A DNA stretch of 64,000 nucleotides, taken from NCBI RefSeq assembly GCF_011806425.1, contig NZ_JAATOV010000002.1, positions 62,001 through 126,000 on the forward strand, read 5' to 3'. Positions 6,086 to 38,343 of the stretch are shown piece after piece. Made by a program: the position numbers and the translations under genes. This stretch comes from Thalassospira lucentensis. Lineage in GTDB: Bacteria > Pseudomonadota > Alphaproteobacteria > Rhodospirillales > Thalassospiraceae. The notes beneath the pieces are model-generated. The model made no database searches. It was not told the DNA's origin and saw only the letters and a list, made by a program, of their open reading frames with translations. Positions within the stretch are counted from its first letter, which is position 1. Every line of letters starts with the position of its first letter.

Positions 6086-9000
6086 CTAGCTTTGCCAATT
6101 CGACGCAATAACGACCTGAAGGTTGTTATAATCAGCACTCGTTTGATCAATGCTATCTGTGCTGACATCCTCTACACCAAACACAGACATGGCATCGACA
6201 AGCGATTGAACATTGCCGCCAGCCAAAGACGCCCCATTACCCAATTCAATATGATCAACTTGATGTTGACCTGTCCCATCAAACCAGTCGGCAACGGTCA
6301 GGCGATCATCAGATCCTAAAAGCTGAACAACAAGGTCATCATTTTCTTTGAACAGCCATATGTCTTCCGCCTCAAGACCGGACTTGATTTCGATAACATC
6401 GTCATGATCCGCATCAGTAATTTGATCTGCACCATCATCAACACCGAACACAAAAGTATCGGCACCCTCACCGCCAGAGAGCAAATCATCCCCGCCTGAG
6501 CCTGTCAAAGTATCCGACAAACCACCTCCAGAGATTACATCATTCCCCGAAGTCCCTTCCTCCGTCACACTCCCCTCTAAGGAGGCGTTCGCGATCCAAT
6601 CGACGGACTGCTCTTCGCCCTCACTGGGAACAAACGTTACCTCGCCTATCGTAGTTCCTCCCAAAGCCAAGTAAGCATTCACGGTTATTGGTTTACTGAT
6701 GTCAGAAACATATTCAGAAGTGTAAAGGATATTGCCATTCTGCTTGTAAACGACAGCCCCTGTTTCCAAACGTTCGACACTGAGAACATCCCCAAACTCA
6801 TAGGCACCTACGATACGGTCAGGGATACCGTAATAGGTACCCTCATCTACAGCAGCAAGCTGGTTAAGCGGCGGGTTATGTAGAACTCTGAAACCGTAAT
6901 TAAACATATCATTGGTTATCTCGGCGTCTGAAAAACCGATCATCATAGGCGAATCTGTAACAACGAAAGTTAAAGCACCTGCCCCATTAAAAGTCTGAGA
7001 TGAAGATACAGTTTCCCACTCATCCACTACCGACGTCTTTGTCAGATCGCCCGTTACAATACCAACCGACACATCCATGATTGCCGTCTGGCTTAGTCCA
7101 TGCTCATCGGTTACTCGATAGCTAAAGCTGTCTTCTCCGGCATAGCCCTCATTCGCCGTAAAGCTGTATGTGCCATCCGCATTAATCGTCACACTGCCAT
7201 TCGCAGGGCCGTCGACAAGCTCAAAGTTCAGCCCGTCGCCATCAACGTCAAGCCCATGAAGCTTATGCTCAACCGTGCCTGCCTCAGACAGCACGATACG
7301 GCCCCCTTCAGCACTCGGACCATGGTAGCTCTCATCAACTGTGTAAGTCCCATCCGCAAAGACAAGCTCTTCAACGCCGCTGACTATATCTGAACCGTCA
7401 TCGCCATCTGATGCATTAAGGTCACGTACCGTAAGAGAACCGTCGCCATTATCCTCAATCGCATAGTCGGATAGATTACCCGAAAAGACCGCTTGGTCAT
7501 CACCATTCCCGCCAAGCAGAGTATCATTTCCTGCCCCACTTTTGAGGATGTCATCTCCCGCCCCTGCATTTAAGGTTGACGATCGAGTACCGGCTTCCAA
7601 TACATCATTGCCTTGCGTTCCATCCAACACAGGAGTGCCAGACACGGTAACATTGGCGTCCGGCACCCAATTAATTTGAGAGGGCTCGCTATCTCCTATC
7701 GCTAGTGTCACATCGCCAACCGTCGCTCCTTCCTGATAAAAAGATGCATCGACAAATAGCGGCGCCTCGGTATCGGAAAGCACCTGGCTGGTATAGAATA
7801 TTTCACCATTTTTGCTGTACGTGACATTACCGCTTTCGTTGCGACCAACCGAAAGAATATCCCCCGTTTCGTAGCGACCAACCGCGCCCACACCAAACCC
7901 ATTCTCACAGACACGAAGTAAACCGTTCGGCAGAAGATAAAGTCCATATTCAATTGAGGTATAACTAGCATCGCCAACTGACGAAGACAGGCCGATGATG
8001 ACATCACTATCCGTTTCTGTCGCAACGACACTTAGAATACCTGCGCCGACAAAGTTCTCAGTTGAAGACGCTCCTGCATTCCAAGCCGATCCGCCTCCGG
8101 TTTTAGTTAGAGTATCGCCGAGATCGCTATAATTCCCGACATCCACCGAGACCATACCTTCACGACTTAGCCCATGTTCGTCGGTCACCCGATAGGTGAA
8201 ACTATCTTCCCCAACGTAACCTTCATTTGCAGTAAAGCTATATGTTCCATCTGCGTTTATCGTCACACTGCCGTTCGCAGGACCATCGACAAGCTCGAAG
8301 CTTAGCGCATCACCATCAACGTCAACACCGTGCAGCTTATGCTCAACGGTACCGGCTTTAGTAAGCACGATGCGACCTCCCGCAGCGGTAGGTCCGTGGT
8401 TGCTCTCGTCAACTGTGTAAGTCCCATCCGCAAAAACAAGCTCTTCAACACTGTTGACGACATCTGAACCGTCATCACCATCAGACGCGTTAAGGTCCCG
8501 AATTGTCAGAGAACCGTCGCCATTATCCTCAATCGCATAATCAGACAAAATACCGGAGAAAACAGCCTGATCATAACCTTCTCCACCGTCGATCATGTCA
8601 TCTCCGCCGAGGCCTTTTAGAAGATCATCGCCCGAAGCACCTCTCAAAGTGTCCTCCAAAGCCGTTCCCTCGAGAACATCGTTGCCTTGGGTTCCGTCAA
8701 TATCTGCATAGTCGGTTGAACTATCGTCACCCAGGGGATCGATAGCTACGTTGTCATCTGCCACCCAACTGACAGGTATTTCGGGACTGTCATCGACACT
8801 AAGTGTCACCTCACCAATCGTCGTGCCTGTATTATTGATTGAGACATCGGCGAAAAGTGGAATAGTTGGATCTGCAAGAACGGTACTGGTGTAAAAGACA
8901 GTACCATTCTTGCTGTACCTCACTATTCCCTCAGCATCGCGTTCAACAGAAAAAACATCGCCTGTCTGATAGTAACCTCCAAGCCCACCTAAATAGGCGC

Positions 9001-21364: not shown

Positions 21365-22267
21365 TTACCCGGCAAAACGTGTGCAAGGCTGGCCCGCAAC
21401 GTCGGTCTGGATCGACAAAAGCGCACCTTCAAGCGGATTGCCGTTATCTTCCAACCCGACCGCGGCCGAGGTGATATAAAGCGTTTTCATATCCGGCCCG
21501 CCAAAGACGCAACTGGTTGGCTGCGTGACCGGCAATTCAATAATCCGGTCCACCGCGCCGGACGGGTTAAACCGGATCAAGCAGCCCCCACCCCACCGCG
21601 CGTTCCAGATATAGCCATCCGCATCCATCGCGGAGCCATCCATATTGCCGCGATCCTGCGGGCCAAAGAATTCACGTGGGTTGGATGGCACACCGGTTTT
21701 CATGTCAAAGTCATAGACATTGAGCGTATTTTTGATGGTATCGCCAAAGAACATCTTGGTCCCATCTGCCGACCACAACAGGGTGTTTGAAATCCCGACA
21801 TAAGATTCAAACCGTGTGACATCGCCATCCGCGTTCACCCGGTTTAGCGTGCCAGTCGAAACCGTAACCGGCAAATCTTCGCCGTTGGGGCCGATATTGT
21901 TTTGCATGGTCCCGTGCCAAAACCGGCCCACCGGATCAACCCGGCTTTCATTGGATCGATTGCCCGCATGATCGGAATCCGGGGCAACAAATGGGGTCGT
22001 TTCCCCACTTTCGGCATCCAGAAATGCCAGGCCATCGGCCAAGGCCACCAACAAACCGTCATTTTCACGCGGGACAATCGCCGCAACCGGCTGATCAAAC
22101 GTCCAACTGCGCGATCCGCCGTCACTCGGGCGCAGGGCATAGGCGGTTTTCCCGACAATATCGACCCAATACAGCATGCCATCCTTGGCATCCCAATGCG
22201 GGCCTTCGCCCAAGGTGCAGCGTAAATTTGGCAAGACGGTTTTTACGTCGAATTTTGCGTCGGACAT
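21365..22267 (-). CDS. SMP-30/gluconolactonase-family sugar lactonase
   Basis: A 300-residue six-bladed beta-propeller hydrolase. Family markers: LGEGPHWD near residue 18 with the metal-ligand Glu, GTMQNN near 130, ISNTLLWSADG near 175 and a MDGSAMDADGYIW segment. The start MSDAKFDVK at 22267 follows an AGGGGA site; an in-frame extension to 22531 would cover the promoter region and is rejected. It is convergent with the ROK gene and divergent from the siderophore importer. It probably hydrolyses an aldonolactone formed from the sugar imported next door. Confidence 0.85.
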   Translation of the reverse strand: MSDAKFDVKTVLPNLRCTLGEGPHWDAKDGMLYWVDIVGKTAYALRPSDGGSRSWTFDQPVAAIVPRENDGLLVALADGLAFLDAESGETTPFVAPDSDHAGNRSNESRVDPVGRFWHGTMQNNIGPNGEDLPVTVSTGTLNRVNADGDVTRFESYVGISNTLLWSADGTKMFFGDTIKNTLNVYDFDMKTGVPSNPREFFGPQDRGNMDGSAMDADGYIWNARWGGGCLIRFNPSGAVDRIIELPVTQPTSCVFGGPDMKTLYITSAAVGLEDNGNPLEGALLSIQTDVAGQPCTRFAG

Positions 22268-22458
22268 GGTTTTCCCCTGATCGTTCGATGCGGTTTTCCG
22301 CTTTGTTTTATCGCCTAAAGCACATGCCCAAAGGCACGGCAACAGGATCGAATATCGCCTCCCCATATTGCTACTAGGAATGAGAATTTCTGAAAAGTCA
22401 TTTTGTATGATGATTAGAATTTTGCCCCTTTTAACGCAGTGCAATCGCAACTCGGTTG

Positions 22459-27334: not shown

Positions 27335-28129
27335 TCAGTCTTCGAAATGGCCATTGGCGGCAAACGGCCCGCCTTGATAAATCACGGCCCTGTCGTGCCG
27401 GTCTTCGGGATCAGACGCGGCTTCGATTTCAGCGCGGAACTGTTCAGAGCTGTCTTGTGGCTGCCAGCCCAAGAAGGACGCGTGGTCGTTGCTCCACCAG
27501 GTCGATGTGTTGTTCGACACACCATACATCACAAGATGGCCGGTCATTGGTGCATCAAATATCGCCTTCATCAGGGAGACAAAGTCACGCGGGCTCATCC
27601 AGGTGGACAGCATCCGACGGTTCAGCGGCTTTTCAAAGCAGGACCCAATGCGAAGCGACACGGTTTCAACATCGAACTTGTCGTAATAATAACTCGCCAG
27701 TGCCTCGCCATAGCATTTGGTCACGCCATAGAGGCTATCGGGGCGCTGTTCGGAAGTGTCATCAAGTTTGGTTGTGCGTTTGTGAAACCCGATTGCGTGG
27801 TTTGAGCTGGCAAACAGGATGCGGGGTTTGTTGTTATTACGCGCCCCTTCATAGAGGTTATAGGTGCCCAGCAAGTTGGCCTGCAGCAAATCATCAAAGG
27901 CGGCCTCAACCGAAATACCGCCAAGATGGATGATGCCATCCACATCCTTGGTCAGTTCATGCACAGCCGCCCGATCAGCAAGATCGCACTGAACGACTTC
28001 TTCGTTCGGACCGGCTGGGTCCATTGGCGACAGGTCCGACAGGCGCAAAACATCGGCATAGCCTTTAAGGCCTTCGCGGCAGATTTTACCAAGGTTGCCG
28101 GCGGCACCGGTAATCAACAAACGTTTCAT
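27335..28129 (-). CDS. udh: Uronate dehydrogenase
   Basis: A 264-residue short-chain-type NAD-dependent dehydrogenase that oxidises D-galacturonate or D-glucuronate to the aldarolactone (EC 1.1.1.203). The N-terminal NAD loop GAAGNLGK, ADLSP-like LSDLSPMDPAGPNEEVVQCDLAD stretch, HLGGISVE, ASSNHAIGF and the catalytic YGVTK are very close to the characterised Agrobacterium-type enzyme as I know it. It has a GAGGACG ribosome site. It is the last gene of a TRAP importer operon and starts the oxidative uronate pathway. Confidence 0.88.
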   Translation of the reverse strand: MKRLLITGAAGNLGKICREGLKGYADVLRLSDLSPMDPAGPNEEVVQCDLADRAAVHELTKDVDGIIHLGGISVEAAFDDLLQANLLGTYNLYEGARNNNKPRILFASSNHAIGFHKRTTKLDDTSEQRPDSLYGVTKCYGEALASYYYDKFDVETVSLRIGSCFEKPLNRRMLSTWMSPRDFVSLMKAIFDAPMTGHLVMYGVSNNTSTWWSNDHASFLGWQPQDSSEQFRAEIEAASDPEDRHDRAVIYQGGPFAANGHFED

Positions 28130-28163: not shown

Positions 28164-29453
28164 TCAATTGGTGCCAAATACAAGGTTGGGCAGCGTCATT
28201 GAGACCGCGGGAATATAGGTTGTCAAAAGAAGTGCTGTCAGGATCGCCAAATAGAACGGCCAGATCGTGCGCACCGCATGTTCGATCCTCACCCCGCCAA
28301 TCGCACAGCCGACAAACAAGCATGATCCCACCGGCGGCGTGCACAGGCCAAGGCCCAAATTCATCATCAGCACCATGCCAAACTGGATCGGGTCCATGCC
28401 AAACTGGGCGGCCAAGGGCAAAAAGATCGGCGTACAAATCAGGATCAAGGCCGCCATATCCATGATCATACCGGCAATCAGCAACATGACATTGATCAGC
28501 AACAGCACCATGATCGGGTTGTCGGTAATCGATGTGATCGCCATGGCCAATTCATCGGGCACGCGGTAAAAGGCCAGCATATAACCATAGGCCGATGCAC
28601 AGCCCACCAGTAGCATCACAAGCGACGTTGTCTTGGCCGATTGTTTGACCGCGGCAACAAAGCCCGCCCAACTAAGTTCCCGATAAACAAGCCCGGTAAT
28701 GATCAGCGCGTAGGCCACACCAATCGCACCAGATTCCGTCACCGTGAACACGCCACTGAGCACCCCACCAACGATGATCACAGCGGTAAAGAACCCCGGA
28801 AGTGCGCGCACAGCGGTCCGCCACACAACACCCCACCCCGGAAATGGTTCCGCCGGATAGCCATGCTTGATTGCCACCAACCAGGTCGCCAGACCAAGCA
28901 ACAAGCACATGATAATGCCCGGCACCACACCAGCCATAAACAGCTTGGAAATCGAAATGCCGCCACCAGCCGCCACCGCATACAGGATCATATTATGGCT
29001 GGGCGGGATCATGATCCCGGCGATGGATGACGTCACCGTGACATTAACCGCGTAATCGGGCCGGTAGCCTTCCTTTTTCATCACCGGAATAAGGATCGAA
29101 CCAAGGGCAGATGTATCAGCCACCGCAGACCCGGAAATACCGCCAAACAGCATGGATGAAAACACGTTCACAATGCCAAGACCGCCCCGGCGACTGCCGA
29201 CCAGTGCTGTGGCAAATTGCACCAGCCGGTTCGCAATCCCGCCATGAAGCATCAATTCACCGGCAAAGATAAAGAACGGGATCGCCAAAAGGGAAAAGGC
29301 ACTAACGCCTGATCCGACCCGCTGAAAAGCGATCAGGGTTGGCAGACCTTCGTAGAAAAAGGCGCCAAGGGCCGCAATACCAAGCGAAACGGCAACGGGC
29401 ATGCCAATGACAATACCAATGGCAAACAGGCCCAGAAGAATGGTCATGCCCAT
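28164..29453 (-). CDS. TRAP transporter large permease (DctM)
   Basis: A 429-residue membrane protein with about 12 helices. DctM marks include VNVFSSMLFGGISGSAVADTSALG near 95-120, IPPSHNMILYAVAAGG, and GLCTPPVGSCLFVGCAIGG near 365. Its start codon overlaps the stop of the small subunit gene by one base (TAATG). It carries the Na+-driven uptake of the substrate captured by the TRAP binding protein, here probably a hexuronate. Confidence 0.92.
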   Translation of the reverse strand: MGMTILLGLFAIGIVIGMPVAVSLGIAALGAFFYEGLPTLIAFQRVGSGVSAFSLLAIPFFIFAGELMLHGGIANRLVQFATALVGSRRGGLGIVNVFSSMLFGGISGSAVADTSALGSILIPVMKKEGYRPDYAVNVTVTSSIAGIMIPPSHNMILYAVAAGGGISISKLFMAGVVPGIIMCLLLGLATWLVAIKHGYPAEPFPGWGVVWRTAVRALPGFFTAVIIVGGVLSGVFTVTESGAIGVAYALIITGLVYRELSWAGFVAAVKQSAKTTSLVMLLVGCASAYGYMLAFYRVPDELAMAITSITDNPIMVLLLINVMLLIAGMIMDMAALILICTPIFLPLAAQFGMDPIQFGMVLMMNLGLGLCTPPVGSCLFVGCAIGGVRIEHAVRTIWPFYLAILTALLLTTYIPAVSMTLPNLVFGTN

Positions 29454-29998
29454 TAGTCAGCGTCCTTATTTAGCAAATCGTCGTGGTAAAATTTGGCTTT
29501 GGAAATGGTGTTCCAGCGCGCAATGATTTTGAGAATATTGACCACACTGTAAAAGGCGATCCCGGCCCCACACACCGCCATTGGCACAGAACGCCACCCA
29601 TCAGAAATATGAATGATCGGCATTTGTTTGCCCCAGTTAAAGGCAACCAAATCCATCCCGCCCATCAGCATCCAATACCCAAACCACGCCATTGCGGCGT
29701 AGCTGATCATCGCGACGACGGCGGCAACTTTTGACGGCAAGGCATCGCGAAAAAACGACACCGCAAGGTGGCTGTTATCGCGCATGCCAGCGGCGGCCAC
29801 CGGAAAGGTGATCAGGACAATCAGGATAAGCGAAAATTGTTCGACCCAAGTGGGCGTTTCGTTCAGCACATAGCGCCCGAAAACAAGCCAGGCAAAACTT
29901 GGGATCAACGCCACAAGGGCCAAGCCGCCGATCAGGTTTAAAACCCCGGCAATGCCACCGCCCAGACGGTCCATCAATTTGGTGAAACGGGAAAACAT
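29453..29998 (-). CDS. TRAP transporter small permease (DctQ)
   Basis: A 181-residue inner-membrane protein with four predicted helices and the family WVEQFSLILIVLITFPVAAAGMR segment near residue 55-78. It lies between the TRAP binding-protein and large-permease genes and overlaps the latter by one base. Its role is structural, as it forms the membrane unit with DctM. Confidence 0.9.
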   Translation of the reverse strand: MFSRFTKLMDRLGGGIAGVLNLIGGLALVALIPSFAWLVFGRYVLNETPTWVEQFSLILIVLITFPVAAAGMRDNSHLAVSFFRDALPSKVAAVVAMISYAAMAWFGYWMLMGGMDLVAFNWGKQMPIIHISDGWRSVPMAVCGAGIAFYSVVNILKIIARWNTISKAKFYHDDLLNKDAD

Positions 29999-30102
29999 GT
30001 ATGCGCCGCCAGAATGTGATTAATCAGAAATAGAAAAACCAAAAAACAATAACACAAAGAAGGGCGACGAAATGATCGCCGCCCCTGTTTTAGATGATGT
30101 GT

Positions 30103-31095
30103 TTATTTCTGCGCATCCTGGATGGCTTTGACCAGATCGGCCAGATCCGGGTTTGCTTTGGAAAACTCGTCATAGACCGGCTGCATTGCATTCTGGAAGG
30201 CGTCTTTGTCAGCGATTTCGTTGACTTCGATGCCAGCAGCGATGACTTTTTCCTTGGATTTTTCGGCACGGTCGGCCCATGCAGCGCGCTGAACTTTAAC
30301 CGATTCATCGGCGGCTTCTTGGACGATTTTCTTTTCGTCGTCTGACAGGCCGTCATAAAGTTCTTTGTTGATGCACAGGCATTCCGGCAGGATCAAGTGC
30401 TGGGTCACGGAATAGTATTTTGCCGCTTCAAAGTGGCCGGAGCTGTCATAAGACGGATAGTTGTTTTCCGCCCCGTCAATCACACCGGTTTTCAGCGACT
30501 GATACACTTCGCTATAGGCCATCGGGGTAGCGTTACCGCCAAGGGCCGCGACCATCTGAACATAGAGATCGTTGCTCATGACGCGGAATTTCATGCCTTT
30601 AAGGTCGGCTGGCGTGTTGATCGGGTGTTTGGAGTTATAGAACGAACGCGCACCAGAATCGTACCAACCAAGCGGCTGAAGACCGGCTTCTTTCAGACCA
30701 TCGGCGATCTGCTGACCGGCGGGACCGTCCATGACTTTGTGCATGGAATCAACGCTTTTGAAGATGAAAGGCAGCGAAACAACGTTTGCTTCGGGGGCGA
30801 CTTCACCCAGCGGGCCGAGGTTGAAAACAGCCCAGTCCAAACCACCAAGGCGGACCTGCTGGATCGCATCAGGCTGATCGCCCAAAACGCCGCCGTGGTA
30901 AACCTTGGCTTCAAGTTCGCCACCCGATTTTTCGTTGATCAGCTTGGCAAATTCTTCCATGCCGGTCGATACCGGATATTCTGGCGGATGGATGTTCCAG
31001 CCGCGCCATTCGCTGGCCTGTGCGCCCGATGCCAAGGCAACCGATACCGCCGCAGCGGCAAGCGTTAAGGTGGTATTTTTCAAAAAGGTGTTCAT
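30103..31095 (-). CDS. TRAP transporter periplasmic binding protein (DctP)
   Basis: A 330-residue secreted protein with a signal peptide ending QASEW near residue 28. It has the DctP signature GMKFRVMSND...ALGG.ATPMAYSEVYQSLKTGVIDGAEN at about 170-215; the Arg in KFRVM is the usual carboxylate-binding residue. A GGGAGGA ribosome site precedes it. Genomic context with udh, kdgD and a lactonase points to galacturonate or glucuronate as ligand. Confidence 0.92.
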   Translation of the reverse strand: MNTFLKNTTLTLAAAAVSVALASGAQASEWRGWNIHPPEYPVSTGMEEFAKLINEKSGGELEAKVYHGGVLGDQPDAIQQVRLGGLDWAVFNLGPLGEVAPEANVVSLPFIFKSVDSMHKVMDGPAGQQIADGLKEAGLQPLGWYDSGARSFYNSKHPINTPADLKGMKFRVMSNDLYVQMVAALGGNATPMAYSEVYQSLKTGVIDGAENNYPSYDSSGHFEAAKYYSVTQHLILPECLCINKELYDGLSDDEKKIVQEAADESVKVQRAAWADRAEKSKEKVIAAGIEVNEIADKDAFQNAMQPVYDEFSKANPDLADLVKAIQDAQK

Positions 31096-31190
31096 TGGAG
31101 TCCTCCCGTGACTTTTTGTCGTCTTACGTATAAAGCCTTGTTTTCCCTGATAGGAACTTGTTGTTGTCAGGAAACCTTACATATTGTCAC

Positions 31191-31202
31191 TTGTAAATAC
31201 AA
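31191..31202. promoter_or_regulatory. Candidate GntR operator before the TRAP operon
   Basis: TTGTA-AA-TACAA is a perfect inverted repeat, preceded by CAC so that the site begins CACTTGTAA. The same CACTTGTAA word recurs in the promoter of the GntR gene at 35255-35263. It lies about 100 bp before the DctP gene. Confidence 0.5.
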
Positions 31203-31301
31203 CTAAAAGGTTCTTTGACAACTGGTCTTTGATGTGCCGATTTTTCCGACCTCATCACATCTTAGGCTTCCCGGCACGCCTACCCGCCGGGATTGCAAAG
31301 G

Positions 31302-32282
<981 letters not shown>

Positions 32283-32380
32283 TCATAATATTACTTTGTC
32301 AAACATATTACAAAACCGATAGGCGCGGCGCATTTTCGCGTGAAAATTCGCGGTTTTCTGGGAATTTTGGGCATTAAACT

Positions 32381-32397
32381 TTGGTATGATGACTTTG
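32381..32397 (+). promoter_or_regulatory. Uronate-locus motif, site 1 (TTGGTATGATGACTTTG)
   Basis: The first of two identical 17-bp direct repeats in the kdgD/hydratase divergent promoter. The TTGGTAT half resembles operators of UxuR/ExuR-type GntR repressors. Related sites are at 34326-34338 and 36368-36380. Confidence 0.6.
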
Positions 32398-32429
32398 TTT
32401 TATTGGCATTATTTAGGGATTAGGTGGAA

Positions 32430-32446
32430 TTGGTATGATGACTTTG
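32430..32446 (+). promoter_or_regulatory. Uronate-locus motif, site 2 (exact repeat)
   Basis: An exact copy of the 32381-32397 site, 49 bp further on and about 75 bp before the hydratase start. A spacing near five helical turns would place two bound dimers on the same face of the DNA. Confidence 0.6.
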
Positions 32447-32519
32447 ACCCCGATTCCCGATACGGTCGCCCATCAAACAAAGCAAACCAAAACCACCAAA
32501 ATCAACGAGACCGCAAGGC

Positions 32520-33284
32520 ATGACAAACATCACCGAGGCAAGCCGGATCCTTGCCGCCGCCTTTACCGACCACACCCTGATTGATCCCCTGCCAACGGAC
32601 ATTGCCCCCGACAGTTTTGACGCGGCCTATGACGTTCAGGATGCCACGTTAAAACGAACCGGCGCCAAACAGGCGGGCTGGAAGATTGCCGTGGCAACCC
32701 GTGCCGCGCAGGAAAAGATCGGCAGTGACGGTCCGCTGATTGGCCCGCTGCTGGATGGTCGCATCTTAGAAGACGGCGCGCATCTGACGACGAATGACCT
32801 GCATTTCCCCAATATCGAGGCGGAAATTGCCGTGGTGATGGCAAGCACGCCCCCATCAGGCGCCACCCCCGAAAGCATCCTTGATCATATCCAAAGCATG
32901 CATTTGGCGATTGAGATTGCCGACCGGCGTTACCACGAAAAACAAAACCCGATCCAAACCTTGGCCGACCTGAACTCCACCGGGTATTTTGTGCTAGGGC
33001 AGCAAATTGAAAATTGGCGGAACCTGATCTTTATCGGTGGCACCGTCACGACCAAAAGTGATGGCGCGGTTCTGGCCACCAACAGCGATCCCAATGCATG
33101 GCCGGAAATCTTTATCGGCCTGGCGTATCTTGTGAACTTCCTTGCCAAACGCGGGGCTGCGTTAAAGCCCGGTGACGTTGTGACAACCGGCGCCTGCGCC
33201 ACACCAACCATTACCCCGCATGGCAAGATCGAAGCGATCTTTGACGGGTTGGGCAGTGTAACAGCGACGATCGAAAAGGTCTGA
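32520..33284 (+). CDS. FAH-superfamily 2-keto-4-pentenoate hydratase-like protein
   Basis: A 254-residue member of the fumarylacetoacetase superfamily, closest in layout to MhpD-type 2-keto-4-pentenoate hydratases. The acidic metal-binding pattern is visible as PNIEAEIAVVM near 100 and IEIADRRY near 125, with a VVTTGACATP segment near 220. It has no signal peptide. It is divergent from kdgD and shares the two 17-bp motifs, so it belongs to the uronate regulon. Its reaction there is unclear: a hydratase or decarboxylase on a 2-keto acid is the family expectation. Confidence 0.78.
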   Translation: MTNITEASRILAAAFTDHTLIDPLPTDIAPDSFDAAYDVQDATLKRTGAKQAGWKIAVATRAAQEKIGSDGPLIGPLLDGRILEDGAHLTTNDLHFPNIEAEIAVVMASTPPSGATPESILDHIQSMHLAIEIADRRYHEKQNPIQTLADLNSTGYFVLGQQIENWRNLIFIGGTVTTKSDGAVLATNSDPNAWPEIFIGLAYLVNFLAKRGAALKPGDVVTTGACATPTITPHGKIEAIFDGLGSVTATIEKV

Positions 33285-33336
33285 TTGCACCCTGCCCCGT
33301 GGCCGAGACAGGCCCAACACACCGCTTATCCATATG

Positions 33337-33372
33337 CAAAAGGCCATGCAGAATTGTCTGCATGGCCTTTTG
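33337..33372. terminator. Bidirectional terminator between convergent genes
   Basis: AAAAGGCCATGCAGA and TCTGCATGGCCTTTT form a perfect 15-bp stem with an ATTG loop. It serves both the hydratase gene (plus) and the lactonase gene (minus). Confidence 0.92.
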
Positions 33373-33409
33373 ATTTATAGATCACGTTGCGGCAAGCAAG
33401 TGCGCGGGC

Positions 33410-34312
33410 TTAGCGGCGACCTTCAACAAAGCGATGAACAGGCACGCCCGGCACATCGACGCGCAAGGAAACGAGCTTACCGGCATCGGGGAAGGTCGCG
33501 CATTTTTCGGCGCTGTAATTTTCCTGATGGCTGGTGACATAAAGGGTTTTCATATCTTCACCGCCAAAGCATGGCATGGTCGGATTGGGCATGGGCATCG
33601 GGATCGACAGCAGCAACTTTCCATCCGGGGCAAAGCGGTTCAGGTTGCCCGCCGACACGCCCGCAGACCAATAGCAGCCTTCAACATCGACCGCGCCACC
33701 ATCTGGCCGCCCCAACCGATCATCCAGATCAAGGTAGCGTTGGCAATTGGAAACTGCCCCGGTTGCGACATCAAAGTCCCACCGATTGACCCACGGGCCA
33801 CGGGAATCAGAATGGTACATTTTGCGACCATCGGGGGACCATGCCAAACCGTTGGAAATCTTAAACCCTGTGACTTTCTCGTCGATTTTGCCATCGGCGG
33901 TGATGCGATACAACGACGCGATAGGTTGCTTATCGGCATCATCATCCATCGTCCCGACCCAGAACGCACCATCCGGGCCGATTTTGCCATCGTTGGTGCG
34001 GCTGTTAATGCCATCATCAATCGTGGCGATTTTGGTCCGGGCATCCGTATTGGGATCGAAATAGATGATGTCTTTGCGAAGCGCGACAATCAGGCGTCCC
34101 TGATCGGTCAGGCCAAAACACCCCAGTTCGCTGTCAAACGTCCATGTTTTGCGTGCACCCGTTGCAACATCCAGCGCATGAAGCTGACAATTGAGGATAT
34201 CGGTCCAATAAAGCCGGTTATTCTGGGCATCCCAGTTTGGGCATTCGCCCAGTGTGAAGGTCTCATCTAGCAGAACTTTCGGCTCATAGAGCCCGCCCGA
34301 CATATCCGACAT
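33410..34312 (-). CDS. SMP-30/gluconolactonase-family lactonase, probable uronate pathway lactonase
   Basis: A 300-residue beta-propeller lactonase with TLGECPNWD (metal Glu) near residue 21, RTNDGKIGPDGAFWVGTMDDDAD near 105-125, ISNGLAWSPDGRKMYHSDS and a GRPDGGAVDVEGCYW segment. GGAGG precedes the start. Its place between kdgD and two GntR genes, and the shared motif at 34326, fit the aldarolactone hydrolysis step (UxuL-like) that follows uronate dehydrogenase. It is a diverged paralogue of the lactonase at 21365. Confidence 0.85.
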   Translation of the reverse strand: MSDMSGGLYEPKVLLDETFTLGECPNWDAQNNRLYWTDILNCQLHALDVATGARKTWTFDSELGCFGLTDQGRLIVALRKDIIYFDPNTDARTKIATIDDGINSRTNDGKIGPDGAFWVGTMDDDADKQPIASLYRITADGKIDEKVTGFKISNGLAWSPDGRKMYHSDSRGPWVNRWDFDVATGAVSNCQRYLDLDDRLGRPDGGAVDVEGCYWSAGVSAGNLNRFAPDGKLLLSIPMPMPNPTMPCFGGEDMKTLYVTSHQENYSAEKCATFPDAGKLVSLRVDVPGVPVHRFVEGRR

Positions 34313-34325
34313 TTATTGCCTCCGA

Positions 34326-34338
34326 AAATTCATCATAT
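34326..34338 (-). promoter_or_regulatory. Uronate-locus motif, site 3 (lactonase promoter)
   Basis: On the minus strand this reads ATATGATGAATTT and matches 11 of 13 bases of GTATGATGACTTT. It sits 14 bp before the lactonase start codon, so bound protein would block transcription or early elongation. Confidence 0.45.
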
Positions 34339-34498
34339 CACTTTGATTATTCTTCGGTTTGCCGGTGTGGCCGAAACTTGTCAACATAATTAACAATTTT
34401 TACGGTCGGATGTCGGCCCCGAACCATACCGGAAATAGCCATCTGCCGCGCGGCAATCTGGGGCCATCACGGGTGAATTTCGGCCCCCAATCCGCCGA

Positions 34499-35215
34499 TT
34501 ACATATCGCGGGCGTGGTCGGTGACGCGCTGGCGGGCTTGATGCAGGTGATAGCGCATCAGAAGTTCCGCACTGTCGGCATCGCCGCTGACAATCGCATC
34601 ATAAATCTGGCGATGTTCGGTCAGTACTTTCTGCCCGCGCCCGGCCGATCCACTGCGGGTAATGTTTAGGGCGACGATCATGCTTTTGCTCATGACGTCA
34701 TGCAGCGATGTCAGGATGGTGACAAAGATTTCATTACCGCTGGCACGCGCAATCGCCATGTGAAAATCCAGATCGGCCTTATCGGCGATATCGCCCGCCG
34801 CGATGCCGTCTTCAAGCATTTTCAACGCGTTCTGGATATCGCGATGGTGCCGCAGGCTGGCGCGATTGGCGGCCATGCGCGCCGTCGCACCTTCAATCGC
34901 GATGCGGGCTTCAAAGCAACGCAAAAGCCCGGCAACATCACTGACACCGCCAAACTCAATCAGCCCTTGTGGGGGGCGGCGTTTTACAAACGATCCCACC
35001 CCTTGGCGGGCATAGACCAAGCCATCCGATTGCAGTTTGCGCAATGCTTCACGGACAACAGGGCGCGACACGCCAAAGGATGCGCAAATCTCATTTTCCG
35101 AGGGCAGCTTTGTCCCTTCGCCAAGCTTTCCGGACACAATCTGCTCTAGGATCTGACCATAAAGCTGATCCGCCAGTTTTTCGCGTTTTTGAAGCTTCAG
35201 CTGAAACCCGGTCAT
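34499..35215 (-). CDS. GntR-family regulator, FadR/FCD subgroup
   Basis: A 238-residue regulator with an N-terminal winged helix (about 10-75; GTKLPSENEICASFGVSRPVVREALRKL) and an all-helical FCD ligand domain with DLDFHMAIARASGN near 145 and an EHRQIYDAI segment near 200, which supplies metal-binding His residues. I use the ATG at 35215, after AAAGGG; two GTG codons just upstream are possible alternatives. CTTGTAA repeats upstream suggest autoregulation and control of the TRAP operon. Confidence 0.88.
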   Translation of the reverse strand: MTGFQLKLQKREKLADQLYGQILEQIVSGKLGEGTKLPSENEICASFGVSRPVVREALRKLQSDGLVYARQGVGSFVKRRPPQGLIEFGGVSDVAGLLRCFEARIAIEGATARMAANRASLRHHRDIQNALKMLEDGIAAGDIADKADLDFHMAIARASGNEIFVTILTSLHDVMSKSMIVALNITRSGSAGRGQKVLTEHRQIYDAIVSGDADSAELLMRYHLHQARQRVTDHARDM

Positions 35216-35234
35216 GGCGCGCACCACCCTTTGA

Positions 35235-35263
35235 ACTTGTTATCTTGTAAATGCCACTTGTAA
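35235..35263. promoter_or_regulatory. CTTGTAA repeats in the GntR promoter
   Basis: CTTGTAA occurs at 35244-35250 and 35257-35263, with a related ACTTGTTA at 35235. CACTTGTAA is shared with the TRAP operon site at 31188-31196. This suggests one regulator for both promoters. Confidence 0.5.
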
Positions 35264-35316
35264 GTTTTATCGGCAAATGACAATCGGGTAAAGGGTGCTG
35301 CACGCAGATTACCAGA

Positions 35317-36339
35317 TCAATCGACCAATAACCTATCGCGCTTGTCCGCGCGCAAGATATCGTCCTCGGCCTCCGCACCATTCACATCGTCAATATCATC
35401 ATGCGCAACAAGGCCCTGATTGGTCGGTTCAATCAAGCGCGGGGTTAAGGTCATGCTGCCCGTCAGGATGTCATTTTGATCTAGCACGGTCAGGTCACCG
35501 AAATCCTTGAACTCCGGGTGATTATGCACATTCGGGACATGGGAAACCGGCTCAACACAAAATGTTTGACCGTCTTCAGGGATATAGAACTGAAGGTTCG
35601 CTAAGCTGTCACTTGCCGACATATGCAAGCCATACCCGGCATCGCCCCAAATCATGTCTGCTTCGCCCTGCCACCCGGCATAATGCACATCAAGACCGCG
35701 ATGATGGCGGATCAGCTTGCCATCGGCAAAATCGCGACCAAGGTCAATAACGGTATGGGCGGTCGGCAACATATCCGCATCCGTCGCAAAACAATCACTG
35801 GCAACAAACGAAACCGATGTATCCGGCGTTGCCGGGAACCAAGGATGAAGCCCAATCCCATAGGGCATCGGGTCGCGGCCCATATGCTGCACACCGATTT
35901 CAATCGTGACATCGTCCTGGGTGACTTTGAATTCCTGCCACGCGGCATAGGAAAACCCGGTATCGGGATCATCGTGGGTGTGGTTGATGCGCAATGTATC
36001 ATCGGTTGGCCGTTCGATTTTCCAAACCGCCCCCCGGCCAAAGCCATGGATCGCATGCGGGCTGGGCGGACGATTGGCCGGGACATTGACAAGACGGCCA
36101 TCAAATTCAAACTGCGCAAATGCCAACCGATTGGCAAACGGCACCATCGGGAAGCAGCCCAAAGACGACGGATTGCCGGACGCAAGGGCCTGTGCAGTCA
36201 CGGGACGCAAAAGGTTGATCGTGCCAGTGCCATCGGGGCGCAGCCAATCAATCCGCGATATCGCCCCACCATTGGCAACGATCCCGATCTGGAATGGTCC
36301 ACTGTTCCAACGATATTCTGCCGCGTCCTTTTTGGGCAT
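35317..36339 (-). CDS. Aldose 1-epimerase family protein (galactose mutarotase-like)
   Basis: A 340-residue beta-sandwich epimerase. Active-site segments: GNPSSLGCFPMVPFANRL near 55-72, HAIHGFGRGAVW near 95, GLHPWFP near 165 with the catalytic His, and FCVEPVSHVPNVHN near 265 with the catalytic Glu. It interconverts sugar anomers. A long acidic C-terminal tail (DDIDDVNGAEAEDDI) is unusual. It is convergent in location with, but on the same strand as, the first GntR gene, and divergent from the second; it probably feeds the correct anomer to uronate dehydrogenase. Confidence 0.85.
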   Translation of the reverse strand: MPKKDAAEYRWNSGPFQIGIVANGGAISRIDWLRPDGTGTINLLRPVTAQALASGNPSSLGCFPMVPFANRLAFAQFEFDGRLVNVPANRPPSPHAIHGFGRGAVWKIERPTDDTLRINHTHDDPDTGFSYAAWQEFKVTQDDVTIEIGVQHMGRDPMPYGIGLHPWFPATPDTSVSFVASDCFATDADMLPTAHTVIDLGRDFADGKLIRHHRGLDVHYAGWQGEADMIWGDAGYGLHMSASDSLANLQFYIPEDGQTFCVEPVSHVPNVHNHPEFKDFGDLTVLDQNDILTGSMTLTPRLIEPTNQGLVAHDDIDDVNGAEAEDDILRADKRDRLLVD

Positions 36340-36367
36340 GATAGATGCCTTTATTCTGTTTAAAATC

Positions 36368-36380
36368 GTATGATGACTTT
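36368..36380 (+). promoter_or_regulatory. Uronate-locus motif, site 4 (epimerase/GntR divergent promoter)
   Basis: An exact 13-bp match, GTATGATGACTTT, to the core of sites 1 and 2. A weaker copy in reverse orientation (GGTATGATAAGT on the minus strand) is at 36472-36483. The GntR gene at 36502 lies just downstream and is the natural candidate for the binding protein. Confidence 0.55.
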
Positions 36381-36501: not shown

Positions 36502-37245
36502 ATGAACAAGACCAATGCGTCAACCGCGGCCAAAAACACACCACGCAAAGTTTCGCTGACCGAAAAGGTCATCGCCAGCCTGCGCCAGGAAATCGAAAGC
36601 GGGCAGCGCGAACCGGGCAGCAAATTGCCAACCGAGCCGGTCCTGACCCAAACATTTGGCGTAAGCCGCACGGTCATCCGCGAGGCCATCGCCGCCCTGA
36701 AAGCCGATGGATTGCTTGAACCGCGCCAAGGGGCTGGTGTTTTTGTCCTGTCGCCCGAGCCCCGCAATAGCGATGCATCGATCTTTGCCGTCGATTACGC
36801 GCAAATATCGGATGTTTTGGAAGTTCTTGAACTGCGCATGGCGGTCGAGATTGAGGCCGCCGGCCTTGCCTGCACGCGAAGCTCCGCCGCCCAGCAGGCA
36901 AAAATCTATGAAGCCATGCAAAAGATGGAAGATGCCGCCACACGTGGGGATGCGACCGAACTGGCCGATTTTGAATTTCATAGTGCCATCGCAGCCGCCA
37001 CCAACAACCGCCGCTATGCCGAGTTTTTGCAGCATCTTGGCGATAAAACCATCCCGCGTGCGCAATTGCGCCGCCGCCCGCCCGAAGTCGAAGATCAAAA
37101 AAACTATCTGCAAATGATCCTTGGCGAACATCGGGGTATCTATGATGCGATTGCCGCGCGCGATGAAGACAGCGCACGCAAAGCCATGCGCACGCATCTG
37201 AGCAAAAGCCAAACCCGCTATCAGAAACTTCTGACGGAACGCTAA
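36502..37245 (+). CDS. GntR-family regulator, FadR/FCD subgroup (candidate uronate repressor)
   Basis: A 247-residue regulator with a winged helix (about 18-85; GSKLPTEPVLTQTFGVSRTVIREAIAALKADGLLEPRQGAGVFV) and an FCD domain with DFEFHSAIAAATNNRRYAEFL near 155 and GEHRGIYDAI near 210. It resembles ExuR/UxuR/KdgR-like FadR-family repressors. It is divergent from the aldose epimerase, and the shared GTATGATGACTTT core lies in its own promoter. It is therefore the best candidate to control the uronate locus. Confidence 0.88.
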   Translation: MNKTNASTAAKNTPRKVSLTEKVIASLRQEIESGQREPGSKLPTEPVLTQTFGVSRTVIREAIAALKADGLLEPRQGAGVFVLSPEPRNSDASIFAVDYAQISDVLEVLELRMAVEIEAAGLACTRSSAAQQAKIYEAMQKMEDAATRGDATELADFEFHSAIAAATNNRRYAEFLQHLGDKTIPRAQLRRRPPEVEDQKNYLQMILGEHRGIYDAIAARDEDSARKAMRTHLSKSQTRYQKLLTER

Positions 37246-38085: not shown

Positions 38086-38343
38086 AACAGTTTCTCGATC
38101 ATTTCCTACGGCAGTTCCAGCAGCATTTCCTGCGCTTTGTGGATGGCCATGTTGAACCTGGCTTGATGACGTGAAGGTCTGGAAATCACCGTATCGAATA
38201 TGATGATTAAGCGTCAATCAGAATGAGTATTTGACCATTCAGTGAACTTTTGATCAATTTAGCATCCAGAACACCAATTAAAAGACCACCCGGCGATCAG
38301 ACATGATCCAGACCAGTTGGCGAAAGTGGAGGAAGAAACAATC

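Follow-up and report, generated by a model that had tools for sequence, protein, structure and literature searches.

The analysed window, a stretch of 64,000 nucleotides of a Thalassospira genome, contains a uronate gene cluster in which two regulators of the GntR family are encoded. The genes of the cluster were assigned as follows.

27335-28129, minus strand: NAD-dependent epimerase/dehydratase-family protein (PF01370), uronate dehydrogenase-like (udh), named from the kdgD context
28164-31095, minus strand: TRAP transporter genes dctM, dctQ and dctP (DctM, DctQ and DctP Pfam families)
31302-32225, minus strand: kdgD, 5-dehydro-4-deoxyglucarate dehydratase (TIGR03249, 425.4 bits, above the cut-off of 373.95)
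32520-33284, plus strand: FAA-hydrolase-family hydratase-like enzyme (PF01557)
33410-34312, minus strand: SMP-30/gluconolactonase-family lactonase (PF08450)
34499-35215, minus strand: GntA, second GntR/FCD regulator (Pfam)
35317-36339, minus strand: aldose-1-epimerase family protein (PF01263)
36502-37245, plus strand: GntB, FadR-type GntR regulator (Pfam GntR 70.9 bits and FCD 94.2 bits, both above cut-off)

GntB is 91% identical to proteins of T. lohafexi and T. lucentensis. In one congener (G009) dctM was found in two matching pieces (L053, about 8182-8196), which suggests a frameshift. Between the genes of a HAD phosphatase and an FGGY kinase, at 38230-38275, there is a block ATGAACATTTGACCA...TGAACTTTTGATCAA that is conserved in the Thalassospira loci examined.

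The initial annotation had taken a repeated motif as the mark of a uronate regulon. The two exact 17-bp repeats that it described between kdgD and the hydratase gene were found at 32381-32397 and 32430-32446 (TTGGTATGATGACTTTG), and the 11/13 match before the lactonase gene was located at 34326-34338 on the minus strand, 14 bp upstream of the start. Exact copies of the underlying 13-mer, GTATGATGACTTT, begin at 32384, 32433 and 36368, that is, three in the window against 0.01 expected. A pattern search of the whole 4.5-Mb genome, which the annotation had called for, returned three exact copies, all of them inside the uronate cluster. The copy at 36368, claimed for the GntR gene at 36502, is indeed exact, but it belongs at least equally to the divergent epimerase gene: its centre lies 32 bp from the epimerase start codon and 131 bp from that of GntB.

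As a unit, the 13-mer had to be ruled out. With up to three mismatches it occurs 16 times in the window (12.6 expected), which is not above chance, and with two mismatches almost all of its 106 places in the genome fall outside the cluster. Because the three-mismatch count is at chance level, the 13-mer by itself describes the sites poorly; its strength is in the exact copies and, more so, in their conservation.

Comparison of the promoters of 28 congeners revealed a 19-bp dyad, AAAKTSAT-NNN-ATSAMTTT, of which the 13-mer comprises the right half and the spacer. In most species the epimerase site reads AAAGTCAT-CAT-ATGATTTT, and in G010, G026 and G027 it reads AAAGTCAT-AGT-ATGATTTA. The spacer has thus changed while both half-sites were kept, which identifies the element as a dyad. 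The half-sites are mostly TSAT/ATSA, with a TGGT half only at the hydratase sites. The recurrence noted initially stood, but the unit is the dyad, and the best-placed site, in the kdgD promoter, had been missed. Five dyad sites are present in the window; they are given here with the kdgD promoter-like element.

32274-32302, minus strand: kdgD promoter-like element, -35 TTGACA (32297-32302), 17 bp, -10 TATAGA (32274-32279), read from the sequence and conserved in relatives
32279-32297, minus strand: candidate operator at kdgD, AAAGTAATATTATGAATTT, zero mismatches to the IUPAC dyad
32378-32396, plus strand: upstream hydratase site, ACTTTGGTATGATGACTTT, with an exact 13-mer (the first of the two repeats), lineage-specific
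32427-32445, plus strand: candidate operator at the hydratase gene, GAATTGGTATGATGACTTT, present in 23 of 23 aligned species and weakest in L060
34326-34344, minus strand: candidate operator at the lactonase gene, AAAGTGATATGATGAATTT, zero mismatches to the dyad
36362-36380, plus strand: candidate operator between the epimerase gene and GntB, AAAATCGTATGATGACTTT, first in conservation among the 19-bp windows of this intergenic region

In the genome-wide pattern searches, only the kdgD and lactonase sites matched the dyad with zero mismatches. The epimerase site has one mismatch, a level shared by one unrelated place in the genome. Three places elsewhere (C6:281436, C6:43688 and C5:872726) were inspected as further regulon members and none was convincing. 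A tentative site of hybrid form (TTGT-ATG-ATGATT) was seen at 22399-22417 on the plus strand, upstream of a second SMP-30 lactonase gene (21365-22273) that adjoins a sugar ABC transporter cluster. In the congeners inspected it is kept at a distance of about 130 bp before the lactonase gene, and it is lost in G019, G023 and G026; this gene is a possible extra member of the regulon.

The placement of the sites was examined against promoter hexamers read from the sequence. The kdgD site fills the 17-bp spacer together with one base of each hexamer; this promoter is absent from the automatic scan because TATAGA fails the last-base rule of the scan. The second hydratase site overlaps a -35-like hexamer, TGACTT (32439-32444), which stands 16 bp before TACGGT, a hexamer that reads TAGGCT in many relatives. 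The lactonase site lies just upstream of the ribosome site, shortly before the start codon. Such positions on promoter-like elements would suit a repressor.

Conservation was evaluated in 29 Thalassospira species, of which 24 have the full cluster including the hydratase gene. The kdgD, second hydratase and epimerase/GntB sites were found in all 24, and the lactonase site in 23 (L062 is without it). The kdgD site occurs in each of the 23 aligned kdgD-hydratase regions, and G020 has it too. Among 276 windows of 19 bp it ranks 15th in conservation, the second hydratase site 31st and the first hydratase site 135th; of the two repeats reported initially, both are exact, but the first is not conserved in the genus. 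The epimerase/GntB site ranks first of 144 windows in 27 species. In G010, G026 and G027, where the hydratase gene is absent, it is the only site kept at full strength. The proposed link between the motif and the uronate genes was thus upheld, the exact form being specific to the cluster in the genome and conserved across the genus. In G020 the cluster is split between two contigs, one with the epimerase gene and GntB, the other with GntA, kdgD, the hydratase and the lactonase genes; sites are found on both, suggesting a trans-acting regulator.

Two species, G019 and G023, keep GntB and lack GntA and the kdgD cluster. No dyad was found near their GntB gene and no convincing one in the rest of their genomes. 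Their GntB proteins are 64-67% identical, and the recognition helix differs at one or two positions only. A palindrome, AAATTCATCAGACGAATTT, seen in G019, G023, G026 and G027, stands between hemE and housekeeping genes (about 1501-1519 in L092, L093 and L094, an origin-like neighbourhood); it was set aside and is probably unrelated.

The initial annotation had pointed to the GntR protein at 36502 as the regulator, and this protein is favoured by the comparison with distant homologues. The upstream DNA of 28 GntB homologues of other genera (38-52% identical) was scanned without bias for 9,216 palindromes, made up of all 1,024 half-sites of five bases at each of nine spacings. For exact matches GTCAT-N3-ATGAC ranked first, with five loci against 0.0 expected and a z of 10; shuffled sets gave no z above 2.9. 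The five loci (of 28) belong to three genera of three families, three of them to one genus, and are therefore not five independent cases. When one mismatch was allowed, GTTGT-N3-ACAAC, a classical FadR form, led the scan. Other distant upstream regions carry a TTGT-type half-site instead, and mixed half-sites were also seen, for instance TTGTATGATGAC in locus L126. Genes resembling udh, kdgD or TRAP components lie near the GntB homologues in 17 of 19 regions, and udh or kdgD in 11; the latter weigh most since TRAP genes are common. Autoregulation as the sole evidence for GntB was ruled out, as the site at 36362 is nearer to the epimerase gene and the GntB genes of G019 and G023 have no site.

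GntB consists of an N-terminal GntR winged helix and a C-terminal FCD domain, the domain composition of the FadR subfamily. The inverted-repeat spacing of this subfamily, 3 bp (or 2 bp), is found as N3 both in the Thalassospira dyad and in the top distant palindrome, and a 3-bp spacer is known from operators of the PdhR/LldR group (PMC4494728). FadR-subfamily operators have conserved TKGT/ACMA boxes (PMC4494728), which are not found at most of the dyad sites; as this consensus has published exceptions (BioR, NanR), GntB was classified from its domains alone. UxuR and ExuR of Gammaproteobacteria are, like GntB, FCD-type members of the GntR family and FadR subfamily (PMC9369180, PMC4494728), and they regulate hexuronate genes. 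In contrast, the pathway of the GntB cluster is of the oxidative udh/kdgD type, and most half-sites of the dyad end in AT, not in GT. The left half of the hydratase site, AATTGGT, resembles the UxuR half-site. PdhR and LldR have the domain architecture of GntB but a different gene context; by sequence, the solved structure nearest to GntB is that of PdhR (9jpj, E 6.7e-29). NanR is likewise an FCD regulator of a sugar-acid pathway; it binds direct TGGTATA repeats (PMC4494728), whereas the Thalassospira dyad is an inverted repeat. GntB was not filed under any of these names because it falls far below the curated NCBIfam cut-offs: 80.4 versus 442 bits for UxuR, 83.3 versus 396 for ExuR, 85.2 versus 330 for PdhR, 112.2 versus 311 for LldR and 105.7 versus 260 for NanR. 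No paper describing the dyad operator was found by title or abstract, in a search that covered mainly papers open without subscription. A sequence-based literature search matched 38 papers, and the 15 listed were on unrelated subjects.

GntB remains the favoured protein, but the second GntR protein (34499), which had not been weighed, has a conserved element of its own.

31176-31204, minus strand: motif 2-like element, ACTTGT/TTACAAG, before dctP, conserved in congeners
35235-35266, minus strand: motif 2, TTACAAG repeats, before GntA, conserved in congeners

Since motif 2 precedes both genes, control by GntA of uptake and of itself is suggested. It is unlikely that GntA instead binds the dyad and controls the uronate genes, with GntB serving its neighbours, the HAD phosphatase and the FGGY kinase. 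The gene of GntA does sit among the target genes, and GntA and the motif are present together in 27 species and absent together from G019 and G023, with GntB in all 29; as those two species keep GntB without a site, the phyletic pattern alone fits GntA equally. The missing sites may be explained by loss of the pathway, and control by GntA would explain them just as well. However, GntA and the TRAP operon have a different conserved element, and at the HAD/FGGY promoters the conserved block is a different one, not the dyad. Moreover, GTCAT-N3-ATGAC is absent upstream of five GntA-family homologues of other genera, while GntB homologues of other genera have it and adjoin udh or kdgD.

Binding of the motif by an unlinked transcription factor, with both local GntR proteins binding other DNA, appears very improbable. 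The regulator is identified by inference and GntB occurs without the motif in G019 and G023, which would leave room for such a factor, but the recurrence of the dyad before gntB homologues in other genera is the usual signature of a local self-regulator. It is hardly credible that the repeats are promoter elements or chance repeats with no regulator: the overlap of the second hydratase site with a -35-like hexamer and the chance-level count of the 13-mer at three mismatches could be read in this way, but not so easily the dyad symmetry, the exchange of a spacer between preserved half-sites, a conservation above that of most flanks, and exact matches confined to the cluster.

The preferred reading, to which a probability of about 0.8 is given, is that GntB is a FadR/FCD-type repressor of the uronate regulon, acting through the 19-bp dyad, with a pathway acid as the releasing signal. 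FCD domains sense small acids, and the residues of the usual metal site (D156, H160, H210 and H232) are present in GntB. Without substrate, a GntB dimer would bind directly to the operators at the kdgD, hydratase, lactonase and epimerase/gntB promoters and block RNA polymerase; at kdgD the whole -35/-10 spacer would be covered. An accumulating uronate or pathway acid would bind to the FCD domain, upon which GntB would leave the operators and the genes would be expressed. GntB may also control its own gene.

Judged from the sequence, this would be a local sugar-acid regulon of an ordinary kind, whose operator is mildly unusual. A broader and more tentative idea, held at somewhat under even odds, is that GntB belongs to a clade of FadR-type uronate regulators that is widespread in Alphaproteobacteria and uses GTCAT-N3-ATGAC as its operator, with half-sites that can combine with those of the classical TTGT/TTGGT type. 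If true, hybrid sites such as TTGGT-ATG-ATGAC would reflect one regulator lineage with an operator in transition. The analysis offers a concrete regulon, open to testing, for the oxidative use of uronates by marine Thalassospira. It also gives a candidate operator to a clade of regulators whose genes stand next to udh/kdgD/TRAP clusters in other Alphaproteobacteria. With two GntR proteins and a different candidate operator for each, the cluster would moreover be a tractable case of how related regulators keep their sites separate.
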